Below are positions 636 through 6,590 of a DNA stretch of 21,939 nucleotides, piece after piece. The stretch is from a virus: positions 1 through 21,939 of IMG/VR virus record IMGVR_UViG_3300022698_000334; one strand, written 5' to 3'. The notes under the pieces were generated by a model. The model worked only from the letters and a program-made list of their open reading frames with translations, was not told the DNA's origin and did not search any database. Position 1 is the first letter of the stretch. Every line of letters begins with the position of its first letter. Both the position numbers and the translations under genes were made by a program.

Positions 636-761
636 CCGCTCCTCAAAATGGTTAAAGGGGGCTTCGGGCCCCTGGTCTACCCCTGGCGCTGGGGTACTGA
701 TGAGCCGAAAGGCCCTGGGCGGAGCACCGCCGAAACCGAAACCTTGAGGAGGGTTGATATG
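591..761 (+). repeat. direct repeat copy A (gene 3' end plus structured leader)
   Basis: This segment, from the codons of the conserved QLEFILSKIQER tail to the next start codon, is repeated at 1227-1391. From 671 to 761 the copies differ at only 3 of 91 positions. Upstream, the coding tail is conserved with scattered changes, and the stretch just after the stop codon diverges. A shared hairpin GAGCGG/CCGCTC (621-641) straddles the stop codon. Copy B lies between the second and third genes, so the repeated module is an intergenic joint between cassettes. Confidence 0.85.
657..743 (+). ncRNA. hammerhead-ribozyme-like structured leader, copy A
   Basis: In order: a GC-rich hairpin (657-672, CUUCGG cap), GGUC (674-677), stem I UACCCC/GGGGUA (678-683 with 691-696) with a 7-nt loop, CUGAUGA (697-703) flush with that stem, hairpin GCC-GAAA-GGC (704-713), CCUG, hairpin GGCGG-AGCA-CCGCC (718-731), then GAAACC (732-737), repeated at 738-743. 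GUC before stem I, CUGAUGA directly after it, and GAAACC able to pair with GGU are the conserved core of a type III hammerhead, with cleavage predicted after C677. The odd part is the two-hairpin insertion where a single stem II is expected, and stem III would be only about 3 bp. Cleavage activity is therefore uncertain, but a conserved RNA structure is well supported by comparison with copy B. The element ends just before the ribosome binding site of the gene at 759. Confidence 0.6.
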
Positions 762-1271
762 ATAACAGCAAAAGATATACAGAAATGGAATATGCAAAAC
801 GATTCAGGCGTAGACCCTGAATTTGTAGGCGGCGGGATGACGCCACAACAAATAGCTAATCACAATCAAATATCAGTTGATGCTCGAATTTGGTTGCTGC
901 TGCATGTGCATGACGAACTGTTTACCGAGCCCGACCTGCATCTAATCGCTTGCGATTTCGCCGAGCAGGCACTGGCGTTAGTAGACGATCATGATCTGCG
1001 ACCCAAAAAATCCATTTCGGAAAAAAGGTTGTGGATTGACGGCAAAGCGGAAAACTTCGGGTTGTTTGTCGCCAGGCTAGAAGCATATAAATATGCTAAT
1101 GCTGAAGCGACTGGCCAGACCTGGATAGCAACCAAAGTCGCTGTCAGGGCTTCGGCTAGTGGGTCGGCAGAGAAAACAGCTTGGGAAACGTCATGCATAT
1201 CATCCGATATTGTAGACAAAAGAGAACAGCTTGAGTTCATCCTGTCGAAAATACAGGAGCGGAACAGCTGA
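759..1271 (+). CDS. phage accessory protein (paralogue 2, without Ala repeats)
   Basis: A 170-residue protein of unknown function, paralogous to the gene at 96. Shared segments are GMTPQQIA (VTPRQIA in paralogue 1), RIWLLLHVHDELF, LHLIACDFAEQALAL and the C-terminal tail QLEFILSKIQERNS. The middle (about residues 105-150) is still Ala-rich but lacks regular tetrapeptide repeats, so it looks like a degenerated or independently evolved version of the repeat region. The ATG at 759 sits 5 bases after GAGGAGGG and is the expected start; the longer frame upstream runs through the structured leader and is not used. It probably belongs to the same operon as the flanking genes. Confidence 0.85.
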   Translation: MITAKDIQKWNMQNDSGVDPEFVGGGMTPQQIANHNQISVDARIWLLLHVHDELFTEPDLHLIACDFAEQALALVDDHDLRPKKSISEKRLWIDGKAENFGLFVARLEAYKYANAEATGQTWIATKVAVRASASGSAEKTAWETSCISSDIVDKREQLEFILSKIQERNS

Positions 1272-1391
1272 CCGCTCCTCACCTGGGGCCCATCCGGGCC
1301 CCTGGTCTACCCCTGATGCTGGGGTACTGATGAGCCGAGAGGCCCTGGGCGGAGCACCGCCGAAACCGAAACCTTGAGGAGGGTTGATATG
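1227..1391 (+). repeat. direct repeat copy B (gene 3' end plus structured leader)
   Basis: Second copy of the module at 591-761. It includes the codons for the QLEFILSKIQER tail, a hairpin GAGCGG/CCGCTC straddling the stop codon (1257-1277), the hammerhead-like leader and the ribosome binding site TTGAGGAGGG. Here the downstream gene is unrelated to the two paralogues, so the leader and not the coding sequence is the conserved unit. Confidence 0.85.
1285..1373 (+). ncRNA. hammerhead-ribozyme-like structured leader, copy B
   Basis: Same architecture as copy A, with all core spacings identical: hairpin GGGGCCC-AUCC-GGGCCCC (1285-1302), GGUC (1304-1307), stem I UACCCC/GGGGUA (1308-1313 with 1321-1326), CUGAUGA (1327-1333), hairpin GCC-GAGA-GGC (1334-1343), CCUG, hairpin GGCGG-AGCA-CCGCC (1348-1361), GAAACC (1362-1367) and a second GAAACC. 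The three differences from copy A in this block are two bases in loop I and one in the GNRA tetraloop (GAAA to GAGA), so no stem is disturbed. The upstream hairpin keeps its pairing although its sequence differs (7 perfect bp here). The predicted cleavage site would be after C1307. Confidence 0.6.
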
Positions 1392-2940: not shown

Positions 2941-3171
2941 ATGAATACTTACGAAGAAATTCTAAGAAAAATCAAAAAGATGAACAGTAATGATCTAAAA
3001 ATACTTGCAGACTCATTACAATGTTCAGACAGAAAAATGACAACAAAAGAATCTATACTTTATTTCACCGGGTGCGGCAATGTAAAAAAGGTGGAAATTT
3101 TTGTTGAAATTCTTGAAAGAGAATTCCAGATCGAAAAAGAAAAATATATAGAAAAAGTTGTTGACAAATAA
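2941..3171 (+). CDS. hypothetical small phage protein
   Basis: A 76-residue, Lys/Glu-rich protein starting MNTYEEILRKIKKM. It is predicted to be mostly helical, with a central segment ILYFTGCGN. No family is recognised. Two in-frame ATGs exist (2935 and 2941). The first abuts the GGGAG ribosome binding site, so 2941 is preferred. It is the last gene of the accessory operon; its final codons contain the -35 box of the next promoter (TTGACA, 3161-3166). Confidence 0.7.
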   Translation: MNTYEEILRKIKKMNSNDLKILADSLQCSDRKMTTKESILYFTGCGNVKKVEIFVEILEREFQIEKEKYIEKVVDK

Positions 3172-3189: not shown

Positions 3190-3216
3190 CTAAAATAATA
3201 GGCTGACTGAAAACAG

Positions 3217-3250
3217 AGGCAGATGACCGAAAGGTTGTCTGCCTTTTTTT
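3217..3250 (+). terminator. strong intrinsic terminator
   Basis: AGGCAGA (3217-3223) pairs perfectly with TCTGCCT (3238-3244). The stem continues inward as TGACC/GGTTG (two G-U pairs) to a GAAA tetraloop, giving about 12 bp followed by seven T residues (3244-3250). It closes the accessory operon and stands between the promoter at 3161-3189 and the late genes. A weaker alternative pairing of GGCUGAC (3201-3207) with GUCUGCC (3237-3243; 6 of 7 pairs) could compete with the terminator stem. Confidence 0.9.
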
Positions 3251-3288: not shown

Positions 3289-5079
3289 ATGCCAATAATT
3301 ACATTTAACCCTACAGATTTTGTCTATAATGCCGGAGAGATTACAATAAGCGGCAGCGCATTGCAATTACTTTTGCAATCAGGACTTGTTGATTTCACAG
3401 AAAACTTTGACAACGATACAGGGTTTACATATGACAATACAAAAAGTGAATTTTCTTCAGGAAAGTTGCAACAAAAAGACAACCGGCCTGCAAACTCTAT
3501 TTTAGGGGCGACTTACACAAACACAGAAGACTTGTCCTTTGCTGCCGATGGGTTTGGCAGTTTGTCTGCAAATATTTCAGGAGGGGCAGCTGTTTCTGGT
3601 GGAAAACTAGTCTGTGATGGTGCTGGCGTAGGGGTTTATTACAGTAGTTCGTTGATTGGCGATCTTTCTGGTAATTTAGTCTTAAAATTTAAATACACGC
3701 CTACTTATTCAACAGCACCTCCTACAAACGTCAATATTGTAACGTTTGCTCCTGTATCTGGAACTTCAAATAGAATTTTGATTTTTCACTCCCCAGCGGG
3801 CAATAGTGTTAGAATAACAGCAAACGGATTATCAGCTGTCGTCTTCGACACATGGGAACCTGTAGCTGAAACAGAATATACATTTGAAGTAATCATTAAT
3901 AGCAATTCTGTTACTCTTTTTATTGATGGGGTACAACTTGGAGGATCAAAAACAATTTCTCCTGGACAAGGAACTGATGCTGTTTGTCTTTACGTAGGGT
4001 CTTTTCCCGGAACTTACAATGAATCAGCAGGGAGTTTTGATAATGTTATCTTGTATTCTGCTGCTAGCCAATCTGCTTCTTATATCGTTCCAGAAGCTGC
4101 ATATTTAGAAACAAATGTTGTTTTGCCTGAACTACAGCATGTAGGAGATGGAGCTATACTTTCCTTTGAGGAATTTGTAACAGTAGAAAGTGGAACCCCC
4201 CGTTATACGCTACAGATAGGACGGTCAGGAAATTATTTATATTGGAATGGTGCTGTATGGGCTGTATCTGACGGAACATATGCTCAATCAAATAGTGCTT
4301 CTATTTTCAATTCTAATGTTAGTACATTACCTGTATCGGGTGAAATATATGGGCAATTCAAAATTCATTTTGAAACATCAAATACACAAAGTTTTGTAGA
4401 TACATTGACAGCGACGTTGATAGAAAATACAGGGTACCTAACAACAAACCCTTCTGCTGTGTCTGACTCTTTCAGAACAGACACAATAAACTCTTTTGAG
4501 TCAGTAGAAACTAAAGCAGGATTAGATGAGATTAAATATGTTTTTTTGAAAGATGGAGTTCAGTATTGGCATAATGGAGTTGATTGGGTTGTATCTAACA
4601 GTACATATGCGGAATCGAACACATTAACGGAAGTGCAGAATAATATTCCTGCTTTTCTTGATTCTGCTGATGGTGGAAAAAATATAAAAGTAGAAGTATT
4701 TTTCCATAGTGATGATGGATCGACAACGCCTTCTTTGGAGTCTTTAACAATAGACTATAGTTTTGCCGGTGAACCGCCGTCTACAACTTTAGTTACCATA
4801 TGGGGATATCTCCGTGATCTTTTTAGTTATGCGGAAGATGAAACCATACAGGTCCGGCCTGCATGGACTATAGGAGATAAAATTGTTTTAAAAGGTGATT
4901 ACAAAAGTATTGTCTCATTGACATCAGGGTATTTTGAGATTAATTGTTATATTGAAGAGAACCATCCACCAGAGTTTCTTTTTTGGAAGATAGGAACTAA
5001 AACATATAAAACAAACTTTTTAAACCAATCAAGTGTAAAAATTGGGGAATTAACAATACTTGAAGAAAGTAGGAGATAA
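3289..5079 (+). CDS. lectin-like (LamG/concanavalin-type) multidomain virion protein
   Basis: A 596-residue protein made of several beta-rich modules. Residues about 85-260 read as a concanavalin A-like/LamG jelly roll, with features such as VLKFKYTPTY, ITANG, YTFEVIINSNSVTLFIDG and FDNVILYS. Two related modules follow at about 305-380 and 414-492, marked by YLYWNGAVWAVSDGTYAQSN and YWHNGVDWVVSNSTYAESN. The last 95 residues (VTIWGYLRDLF, then SGYFEINCYI) look like an Ig/carboxypeptidase-regulatory-like domain. There is no signal peptide. It lies just before the prohead protease, so a head-decoration or minor head protein is inferred; binding of host or mucus glycans would be consistent but is unproven. 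The ATG at 3289 has only a weak ribosome binding site (GGGAT). Confidence 0.75.
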   Translation: MPIITFNPTDFVYNAGEITISGSALQLLLQSGLVDFTENFDNDTGFTYDNTKSEFSSGKLQQKDNRPANSILGATYTNTEDLSFAADGFGSLSANISGGAAVSGGKLVCDGAGVGVYYSSSLIGDLSGNLVLKFKYTPTYSTAPPTNVNIVTFAPVSGTSNRILIFHSPAGNSVRITANGLSAVVFDTWEPVAETEYTFEVIINSNSVTLFIDGVQLGGSKTISPGQGTDAVCLYVGSFPGTYNESAGSFDNVILYSAASQSASYIVPEAAYLETNVVLPELQHVGDGAILSFEEFVTVESGTPRYTLQIGRSGNYLYWNGAVWAVSDGTYAQSNSASIFNSNVSTLPVSGEIYGQFKIHFETSNTQSFVDTLTATLIENTGYLTTNPSAVSDSFRTDTINSFESVETKAGLDEIKYVFLKDGVQYWHNGVDWVVSNSTYAESNTLTEVQNNIPAFLDSADGGKNIKVEVFFHSDDGSTTPSLESLTIDYSFAGEPPSTTLVTIWGYLRDLFSYAEDETIQVRPAWTIGDKIVLKGDYKSIVSLTSGYFEINCYIEENHPPEFLFWKIGTKTYKTNFLNQSSVKIGELTILEESRR

Positions 5080-5081
5080 TA

Positions 5082-6590
5082 ATGCCTTGGAAATTAAATA
5101 ATAAAGCAGTAAACAAGATGAATGGTCTGGTAAGAACAGGAAAAGTTGATAATGAAAGTGATTGGTCATTTGAATCTTCTGACGGAAACTCTTTGTTAGG
5201 TGAAGATAATAATTGGAATAAATTCAGCTCTGTGCATTTGGCTATAAACCCTGAAGCTGAAGACAAAACAAAAGAGAAGTACAGCTATCCTGTAGCCAAA
5301 CTCAAAAATGGGGAATTAACTGTATATAGAAGAGGACTTATTGCTGCAAAAGCCGCAGCTGCAGGTGCAAGAGGAGCAGAAAAACAGGAAAACATTTACA
5401 ATGCTGCTGATAGTCTTTTGAAGGCTGTTGAAAAAAGAAATGATTCTTTTGAAGAAGTGCAAAGGTTTGATCTGTATGAAGTGGATTTGAATAAAAAAAG
5501 TGATGTGATGTGTGAAAAAATGAAGGAAACATCAGAAGGTTATTTAAAGGGATCCGCTGTAATCACAAATATTGGTGTTTTTGAATATATGAATGTTGAT
5601 GGAAGTGTAAGGCGAGAATTAAGGATGCCTGAAGATGTTTTTGACATAGATTCTTTAGAATCACTAAAGATGCAGCCTATAAGCAACAACCACCCTCCTG
5701 AGAGGATTATTGATTCTGGAAATATAAAACAGCATCAAGTAGGGCATTTAGGTGAGAATATAAAAACAGATAACCTGCATGTAAGTGTTCCGATCGTTAT
5801 TACGGATAAAGAAACGATAGAACAGATAAAAAGAAAAGGGAAAAGAGGATTATCTGCAGGTTATCGAGCAACAATCGAACACAAACCTGGAACCTATCTT
5901 GGGATGAGATATGATGCAATCCAAAGGAATATCAAGTACAATCATGTTGCTATTGTTGATAGAGGGCGTGCAGGAGACGCTGCAAGACTAAAAATTGACT
6001 CTGCAAATAACGCAGATAAAACAGCCTACCGTTTGATAGGTGATAAAATTAACGAGGAGGGTATTATGCCTGAAACATTAAAGAAAATCTGTATTGATGG
6101 TGTGGATTATCAGGCGGAAGCTGAAGTAATCAAGGCACATAATACAGAGAAAAAGCGAGCTGATGCACTGCAAAACAATCTTTCAGTAGTCGAAGCTGAA
6201 AGAGATAATTATAAAAGCAAGTGTGATCAACTAGAAAAGGAACTTGAATCTGTAAAACTTGATGACAGTAAAATTAGAGCGGCTGTACAGAAAAAGATCG
6301 ATCTACTCTCTACAGCGTCCAAGTTTGAGATTGATGTAAAAACGGATGCGACAGATACTGAAATCAGAAAAGCCGTCATTCTTGCTGCATTTCCTGATGC
6401 TAAACTAGATGGGAAAGATGATCTTTATCTTGAAGGCAGATTTGATGGTGCTGTAGAAATTCTTAACAGGAAAAAAGATAATGAAGGAAGAACCCCCTTC
6501 ATTGAAATTCCAGATGGGTCTGAGCACGTTGACAGTGCTGAAGATGCAAGACGGCGAATGGTAAAGCGTCTTACAAAAAAGGAGGCGTAA
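5082..6590 (+). CDS. prohead maturation protease with C-terminal scaffold domain (DUF2213 type)
   Basis: A 502-residue protein. Residues 45-100 (KFSSVHLAINPE to LIAAKAAAAGARGA) match the N-terminal module often fused to phage DUF2213 proteases. Residues 155-305 are the protease: GVFEYMNVDGSVRRELR, then NNHPP (His204), LSAGY (Ser258) and YDAIQRN...YNHVAIVDRGRAG (His288). A Ser258 with two His is the expected catalytic set, by analogy with herpesvirus/HK97-type prohead proteases. Residues 330-500 are charged and include a coiled coil (about 345-400), as expected for a scaffold. Such proteins process and shape the procapsid. Start: ATG 5082 after TAGGAGATAA, 2 bases past the previous stop. An internal start is described separately. 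Confidence 0.88.
   Translation: MPWKLNNKAVNKMNGLVRTGKVDNESDWSFESSDGNSLLGEDNNWNKFSSVHLAINPEAEDKTKEKYSYPVAKLKNGELTVYRRGLIAAKAAAAGARGAEKQENIYNAADSLLKAVEKRNDSFEEVQRFDLYEVDLNKKSDVMCEKMKETSEGYLKGSAVITNIGVFEYMNVDGSVRRELRMPEDVFDIDSLESLKMQPISNNHPPERIIDSGNIKQHQVGHLGENIKTDNLHVSVPIVITDKETIEQIKRKGKRGLSAGYRATIEHKPGTYLGMRYDAIQRNIKYNHVAIVDRGRAGDAARLKIDSANNADKTAYRLIGDKINEEGIMPETLKKICIDGVDYQAEAEVIKAHNTEKKRADALQNNLSVVEAERDNYKSKCDQLEKELESVKLDDSKIRAAVQKKIDLLSTASKFEIDVKTDATDTEIRKAVILAAFPDAKLDGKDDLYLEGRFDGAVEILNRKKDNEGRTPFIEIPDGSEHVDSAEDARRRMVKRLTKKEA
6066..6590 (+). CDS. nested scaffold protein from an internal in-frame start
   Basis: Inside the protease-scaffold gene, GAGGAGG (6054-6060) is followed 5 bases later by ATG 6066, which is exactly in frame (codon 329). 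It would give a 174-residue protein (MPETLKKICIDG...) consisting only of the coiled-coil scaffold region, starting just after the protease domain. This is the arrangement of lambda C/Nu3, where free scaffold is made from an internal start. The perfect ribosome binding site at this spot within a coding sequence is the evidence; expression is inferred. Confidence 0.7.
   Translation: MPETLKKICIDGVDYQAEAEVIKAHNTEKKRADALQNNLSVVEAERDNYKSKCDQLEKELESVKLDDSKIRAAVQKKIDLLSTASKFEIDVKTDATDTEIRKAVILAAFPDAKLDGKDDLYLEGRFDGAVEILNRKKDNEGRTPFIEIPDGSEHVDSAEDARRRMVKRLTKKEA

Follow-up and report, generated by a model that had tools for sequence, protein, structure and literature searches.

Putative type III hammerhead ribozymes with an extra helix at the CUGAUGA/stem II junction in the leaders of viral genes

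Clustered hammerhead ribozymes of phages and prophages are described by Perreault 2011 (PMC3088659) as flanking single genes or short gene blocks, and were proposed there to process polycistronic phage RNA; some proved active when examined, such arrays being seen to cleave in vitro, and one array also in E. coli. The junction between CUGAUGA and stem II appears uninterrupted in these hammerheads, with core insertions of 1–2 nt placed elsewhere in the core (PMC3088659), and according to Eckert 2023 (PMC10085705) no insertion of more than 1–2 nt is known at the CUGAUGA/stem II boundary. The present study concerns a 21,939-base stretch of viral DNA, the whole of IMG/VR record IMGVR_UViG_3300022698_000334 (hereafter the window), in which two near-identical gene leaders (657–743 and 1285–1373) are probably type III (SCG-order) hammerheads bearing an extra helix at this very junction, and would cleave, after C677 and C1307, the polycistronic mRNA of a phage.

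The likeness to the Rfam family Hammerhead_3 (RF00008) extends to the S-C-G order, the GUC triplet, CUGAUGA, GAAA, stems I–III and the loop I/loop II interaction, whereas the family of inserted hammerheads to which the leaders belong possesses in addition a 14–19 nt hairpin plus linker between CUGAUGA and stem II. Hammerheads of this type cleave themselves 3′ of H17, leaving a 2′,3′-cyclic phosphate and a 5′-OH. The hallmarks of type III membership, namely CUGANGA, GAAA and an N-U-H triplet, are shared by the two copies and by every one of the 17 inserted members described below; stems I and III lie flush with the core, the 5′ and 3′ ends fall in stem III, and the block order S-C-G matches none of the permuted layouts SGC, CSG and GCS. 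Like the SGC and CSG types of Eckert 2023 (PMC10085705), the inserted family is a natural departure from the classical layouts found by sequence search, but whereas those types reorder the three blocks, the inserted family retains the classical order and interposes a helix at the boundary of the C-block and stem II, a boundary assumed in that paper to be uninterruptible. The pseudoknot-containing hammerhead with a helix IV reported by Zhan 2024 (PMC11300833) likewise combines a fourth helix with a loop pseudoknot; by way of contrast, the extra helix of the inserted family joins the edge of the core beside stem II, outside the loop-loop pairing. No report of such an insertion was found in a literature search in which most subscription papers and the supplements lay out of scope and the Obelisk 'variant type III' hammerheads were not compared in detail, and an earlier example is possible.

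Both leaders contain a complete type III hammerhead core in S-C-G linear order: GGTC (674–677 and 1304–1307) precedes CTGATGA (697–703 and 1327–1333), itself flush with a stem I of TACCCC/GGGGTA, and 3′ of CTGATGA there follow, in each copy, GCC-GNRA-GGC, CCTG, GGCGG-AGCA-CCGCC and GAAACC. These are the sequences and pairings set out in an initial annotation of the window, which had also placed all of the few differences between the copies in apical loops; comparison of 671–761 with 1301–1391 bore this out, the 3 differences in 91 positions comprising two in loop I (686/1316 and 687/1317) and one in the GNRA loop (709/1339). The hairpin upstream of each core was similarly confirmed to keep its pairing with a changed sequence, forming seven perfect pairs in copy 2 and seven pairs, two being G-U, in copy 1. 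The component parts, with the sites of predicted cleavage, are as follows.

657–672, + strand: upstream hairpin, copy 1, with which the upstream RNA would terminate once cleaved
673–677, + strand: stem III 5′ strand UGGU plus C17, copy 1, pairing with 735–738; predicted cleavage after C677
678–696, + strand: stem I hairpin, copy 1, loop UGGCGCU, from sequence and covariation
697–703, + strand: CUGAUGA core strand (C3 to A9), copy 1, invariant in 17/17 inserted members
704–713, + strand: inserted hairpin GCC-GAAA-GGC, copy 1, which covaries and has no counterpart in ordinary hammerheads
714–717, + strand: linker CCUG, copy 1, consensus C-N-(N)-Y-G; a mini-hairpin is possible with flanking C713 and G718
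718–731, + strand: stem II GGCGG-AGCA-CCGCC, copy 1, loop able to pair with loop I
732–738, + strand: GAAACCG (G12, A13, A14 and stem III 3′ strand), copy 1
1285–1302, + strand: upstream hairpin, copy 2, 7 perfect pairs; 0/200 random same-strand windows equally stable
1303–1307, + strand: stem III 5′ strand plus C17, copy 2; predicted cleavage after C1307
1308–1326, + strand: stem I hairpin, copy 2, loop UGAUGCU, from sequence and covariation
1327–1333, + strand: CUGAUGA core strand, copy 2, from sequence
1334–1343, + strand: inserted hairpin GCC-GAGA-GGC, copy 2, from relatives and covariation
1344–1347, + strand: linker CCUG, copy 2, from comparison of linkers
1348–1361, + strand: stem II GGCGG-AGCA-CCGCC, copy 2, loop complementary to UGCU of loop I
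1362–1368, + strand: GAAACCG (core end and stem III 3′ strand), copy 2

Each leader would fold into stem III (UGGU/ACCG), a stem I with loop UGRYGCU, stem II (GGCGG/CCGCC) and the conserved core, the AGCA loop of stem II pairing with GCU of loop I. The minimum-energy fold of each isolated window core corresponded to this arrangement plus one isolated pair. The folding energies of the two copies were unremarkable (z = −0.5 and −1.4), and because such single-sequence values are ordinary, the case rests on relatives.

A relative that resolves the anatomy was found among 50 viral loci reached by way of the window's capsid protein. This locus, L008, encodes an MCP (capsid protein) 61% identical to that of the window, has 12 proteins in common with it, and carries on its minus strand two hammerheads 322 nt apart (29402–29472 and 29741–29794 of its contig). 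One, at 6469(−), has the ordinary type III form, with stem I UACCCC/GGGGUA, CUGAUGA, stem II GGUC-AAGGCA-GGCC and GAAAC; the other, at 6147(−), has an identical stem I and CUGAUGA, after which come the hairpin GCG-GAAA-CGC, the linker CAGCG, the hairpin GGUCU-AAGGCA-AGGCC and finally GAAAC. Since the stem II loop AAGGCA is kept in both, the extra part falls after CUGAUGA and before stem II. The second hairpin of the window leaders corresponds to stem II because it is flush with GAAA and its RGCA loop can pair with loop I, and from these comparisons the extra element is identified as the first hairpin (704–713, 1334–1343) together with its CNNG linker. The converse assignment, with the first hairpin as stem II and the second inserted before GAAA, was ruled out on the evidence of the two L008 copies and of the complementarity with loop I.

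Scans of IMG/VR, conducted with patterns based on loop I and spacing and then with a covariance model, identified 17 distinct inserted members: the two window copies, L008, L117, L124 and twelve from a second phage lineage (L057, L060, L071, L072, L076, L079, L080, L081, L120, L129, L131 and L142). The search for covarying homologues proposed in the initial annotation was in this respect productive, as the stems of these members covary. All 17 share the succession CUGAUGA, a hairpin of 3–6 bp, a linker C-N-(N)-Y-G, stem II and GAAAC, with a stem II of 4–5 pairs closed by a loop ending in GCA; the inserted hairpins are short (10–15 nt) and their loops varied (GNRA, UGG, AUCC). GUC, GAAAC and the core residues are kept in 17/17, a conservation biased at those bases which the search patterns fixed, namely CTGATGAG and CGAAAC. 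Overlapping subsets of the second-lineage contigs have in common a MoxR-like ATPase, a VWA protein, a Twinkle-like primase-helicase and a terminase; no protein common to this and the window lineage was evident. Type III hammerheads of the ordinary kind in L008, L055, L056, L061, L064 and L065 possess the same two loops, I and II. In those at L065 2181 and 2993 and at L061 4058 the boundary of CUGAUGA and stem II is marked by one additional base or a U-C mismatch, irregularities suggesting that this boundary may be tolerant in the group. Three contigs of the second lineage, L080 (11391–11442 (−)), L083 and L086, have another hammerhead-like match, its stem II very weak, approximately 650 nt upstream of the inserted hammerhead, one gene separating the two.

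Among 257 Gb of bacterial and archaeal genomes, scanned as a control, a strict pattern gave no match and a looser one 21, which were chance matches including no complete inserted hammerhead. A bacterial contig from a MAG (genome assembled from metagenomic reads; L174, JAUSIS010000007.1) gave two weak model matches some 830 nt apart (5257–5325 and 6090–6158), one of which was inspected and resembles a type III hammerhead of the ordinary kind whose stem II is long and branched. A strict pattern carrying the exact insert detected nothing beyond the window, another pattern scan gave two chance matches in coding regions, and a viral scan for a 4-bp stem II returned, among chance matches, only the already-known L124. 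No relatives were found by way of the gene 2 protein; no model match was obtained in 11 more contigs with related capsid genes or in two cultured phages at the loci of their related MoxR gene; and DNA similarity to cultured phages was absent for the window and L071 and confined to chance pieces of 21–26 nt for L079.

Covariation was assessed in an alignment (A4) of 28 distinct matches which was fitted to the model structure, so that its numbers lean towards the model: 94.3% of cells were paired, as against 65.4% when shuffled and 33–47% with partners slid, and the covariation score was 0.536 versus 0.120 for the control. Pairs changed on both sides amounted to 6/6 in stem I, 4/5 in stem II and 3/6 in the insert, stem I was 100% paired, and the A15.1-U16.1 and 15.2-16.2 pairs were present in 28/28. 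An unfitted MAFFT alignment of 15 members gave the same stems, 12 of the 18 predicted pairs being changed on both sides. Between the final position of loop I and the first RGCA base of loop II the combination was U-A in 15 cases, C-G in six, U-G in one and C-A in none (Fisher p = 9e-5, uncorrected for kinship); one site in L065 is U-A and another C-G, and L057 departs from its own lineage in the same manner. As judged by this complementarity and covariation, the loop I/loop II tertiary contact of fast hammerheads appears to be present. With 17 viral members, and covariation far above the shuffled and slid controls, the inserted architecture is by these sequence comparisons beyond what chance would be expected to yield.

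Six residues at the insert are invariant (17/17): the G after A9, the two Cs at the end of the insert and start of the linker, the two Gs at the end of the linker and start of stem II, and the C before G12. They may be read in two registers, which appear about equally likely. In a three-way register the insert helix and stem II would each close with their own G-C pair, CNNG being single-stranded and the insert lying at the edge of the core; in a four-way register G704-C731 would be the canonical G10.1-C11.1 pair and CC-NY-GG a two-pair mini-arm, giving a perfect junction inside stem II. Both fit every sequence and alignment alike, and covariation does not separate them. Stem II would not be flush with both CUGANGA and GAAA in the three-way register, where the insert takes G704, but would be so in the four-way register by virtue of G704-C731. 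The latter also accounts for the conserved C and G in five different linkers (CUUG, CCUG, CACG, CCCG and CAGCG), bases that the search pattern did not fix, whereas the invariance of the G after A9 and of the C before G12 is weak evidence because the patterns fixed both; a mini-arm loop of just 2–3 bases counts against the four-way register. There is close to an even chance that these are natural four-helix hammerheads, in which stem II, after the single pair G10.1-C11.1 (G704-C731), opens into a four-way junction without unpaired junction bases. The arms of such a form would be the extra arm, the CC-NY-GG mini-arm and a distal stem II stacking in line and docking on loop I, with a canonical core; the same letters permit a one-pair, branch-migrated three-way form. 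Read from the letters, the inserted family either breaks the rule of Eckert 2023 (PMC10085705) or, in the four-way register, would satisfy it with a one-pair stem II before the junction.

The genes and signals surrounding the leaders are as follows.

5–33, + strand: sigma-70-like promoter TTGACA-17-TATATT upstream of gene 1, 11/12 matches, a consensus match only
96–635, + strand: gene 1, paralogue of gene 2 with alanine-rich repeats, no Pfam family
740–755, + strand: hairpin AACCUU-GAGG-AGGGUU holding the gene 2 Shine-Dalgarno sequence
759–1271, + strand: gene 2, 170 amino acids, between the two predicted cleavage sites
1389–1646, + strand: gene 3, 85 amino acids
3215–3246, + strand: first strong intrinsic-terminator-like hairpin downstream, 14 pairs with a T-rich tail

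One predicted ribozyme lies between genes 1 and 2 and the other between genes 2 and 3. No strong promoter or terminator was found on the + strand between these genes, and the next + strand promoter of equally good match lies at 3161; given the promoter at 5–33 and the terminator-like hairpin at 3215–3246, genes 1–3 and more are probably on one transcript. That the leaders stand just upstream of ribosome binding sites, as originally annotated, was upheld, and the gene arrangement is consistent with the proposed role: predicted cleavage falls 81 nt ahead of the start codon in each window copy and, at most of the other sites, 54–92 nt ahead of a start codon with a Shine-Dalgarno-like sequence. 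Of 28 sites, ordinary as well as inserted, about 17 have a stable hairpin directly 5′ of stem III within the 36 nt upstream, among them both window copies, L080, L056 and L061. A transcript starting near position 40 would, by self-cleavage after C677 and C1307, be cut into gene-sized mRNAs, of which the upstream pieces would end in a stable hairpin and the downstream pieces begin with a 5′-OH stem I hairpin some 80 nt before the start codon. Since RNases do not usually gain entry at ends of either kind, processing into protected single-gene mRNAs would be the likeliest benefit. Where the upstream hairpin extends into the stem III 5′ strand it could drive product release or slow folding.

The paralogous genes 1 and 2 share just 76 identities across 153 aligned residues; gene 1 has a long run of alanine-rich DAA/RTAA repeats, absent from gene 2, in which its PHROG matches (families of unknown function) mainly fall. 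The Shine-Dalgarno region AACCUUGAGGAGGGUU forms a hairpin and is identical before genes 1, 2 and 3 (77–92, 740–755 and 1370–1385) and in L061, where near 4035 (−) it overlaps the hammerhead GAAACC, an overlap avoided by the second GAAACC of the window. The stop codons of gene 1 and gene 2 are each overlapped by a hairpin GAGCGG...CCGCTC (621–641, 1257–1277), conserved between the two copies, with which each mRNA would carry two hairpins near its 3′ end. In the second lineage, proteins of approximately 195–232 amino acids follow the ribozyme in most members (L071, L076, L129, L131, L079, L120), and no Pfam match was obtained for the two of these tested. A coding role for the leader, through an open reading frame at 648–1271, was rejected: a ribosome binding site precedes the ATG at 759 but not the start of this frame, and covariation is seen in the RNA stems.

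Several observations weigh against the reading of the leaders as cleaving hammerheads, in addition to the lean of the search patterns and of the A4 alignment described above. The minimum-energy folds of L124 and of the inserted L008 copy depart from the model, the other 15 of 17 giving stems I–III plus the insert; a different fold is predicted for copy 1 when its upstream hairpin is included; one loop-loop pair is broken in L129; and in about a dozen cases the 5′ strand of stem III could be captured by the hairpin upstream of it. In the Rfam comparison called for in the initial annotation, the only ribozyme matches in the window at a permissive threshold were Hammerhead_3 at the two leaders (19.9 and 15.5 bits), the family that also best matched the inserted L071 (32.8 bits) and the ordinary L008 copy (27.6 bits), but no Rfam family reached its gathering score anywhere in the window, and all Hammerhead_3 scores fell below the gathering threshold of 48.5 bits, ordinary relatives likewise falling short. 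Such a score is a detection threshold and no property of the molecule. In HHmeta, a 2-nt insertion elsewhere in the core, near C3, strongly impaired cleavage under standard conditions (PMC3088659).

The HHmeta precedent (PMC3088659) is one reason for considering a hammerhead-derived RNA without cleavage, in which catalysis was lost through the insert, placed as it is against the core, and the fold persists as a structured leader, acting for example in mRNA stability or protein binding. The close ribosome binding site would suit such a role, and L008 retains an ordinary copy beside the inserted one; yet a dead ribozyme should have lost G12, A14 or C17 in some copies, whereas in all 17 members, or nearly so, the residues needed for catalysis, GUC and the complementary loop bases persist despite widely diverged stems and loops, and this explanation is considered unlikely. 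Less likely again is a ligand- or protein-controlled hammerhead in which the inserted helix acts as a sensor switching cleavage, a natural counterpart of laboratory aptazymes. The insert sits at stem II, the place at which aptamers are attached in designed ribozymes, and in many members stem III faces possible competition from the upstream hairpin, but inserted hairpins of this length with variable loops display no conserved binding pocket, and the downstream genes differ between the lineages.

The initial annotation had left a choice between a hammerhead variant with an insertion and a new structured RNA built from similar parts. Support for the former comes from the L008 pair, from the complementarity of loops I and II, from stems that covary and from a core that is intact. 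The latter, or a chance resemblance, might be thought consistent with sub-threshold Rfam scores and single-copy folding energies near those of shuffled controls, but is disfavoured by 17 relatives sharing order and covariation, by the ordinary hammerhead twin in L008, and by the failure of the 21 matches in the genome collection to include a complete inserted hammerhead; it is very improbable indeed.

As a cleaving type III hammerhead with an added helix, the inserted build, recorded in several kinds of virus, may constitute a new natural form of the hammerhead ribozyme. The occurrence in one genome, L008, of a pair with and without the insert renders the limits of the hammerhead fold directly testable, and the position of the insert offers a new attachment point for designed switches. 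Because standard models miss inserted hammerheads, ribozyme processing of phage mRNA has probably been under-counted.
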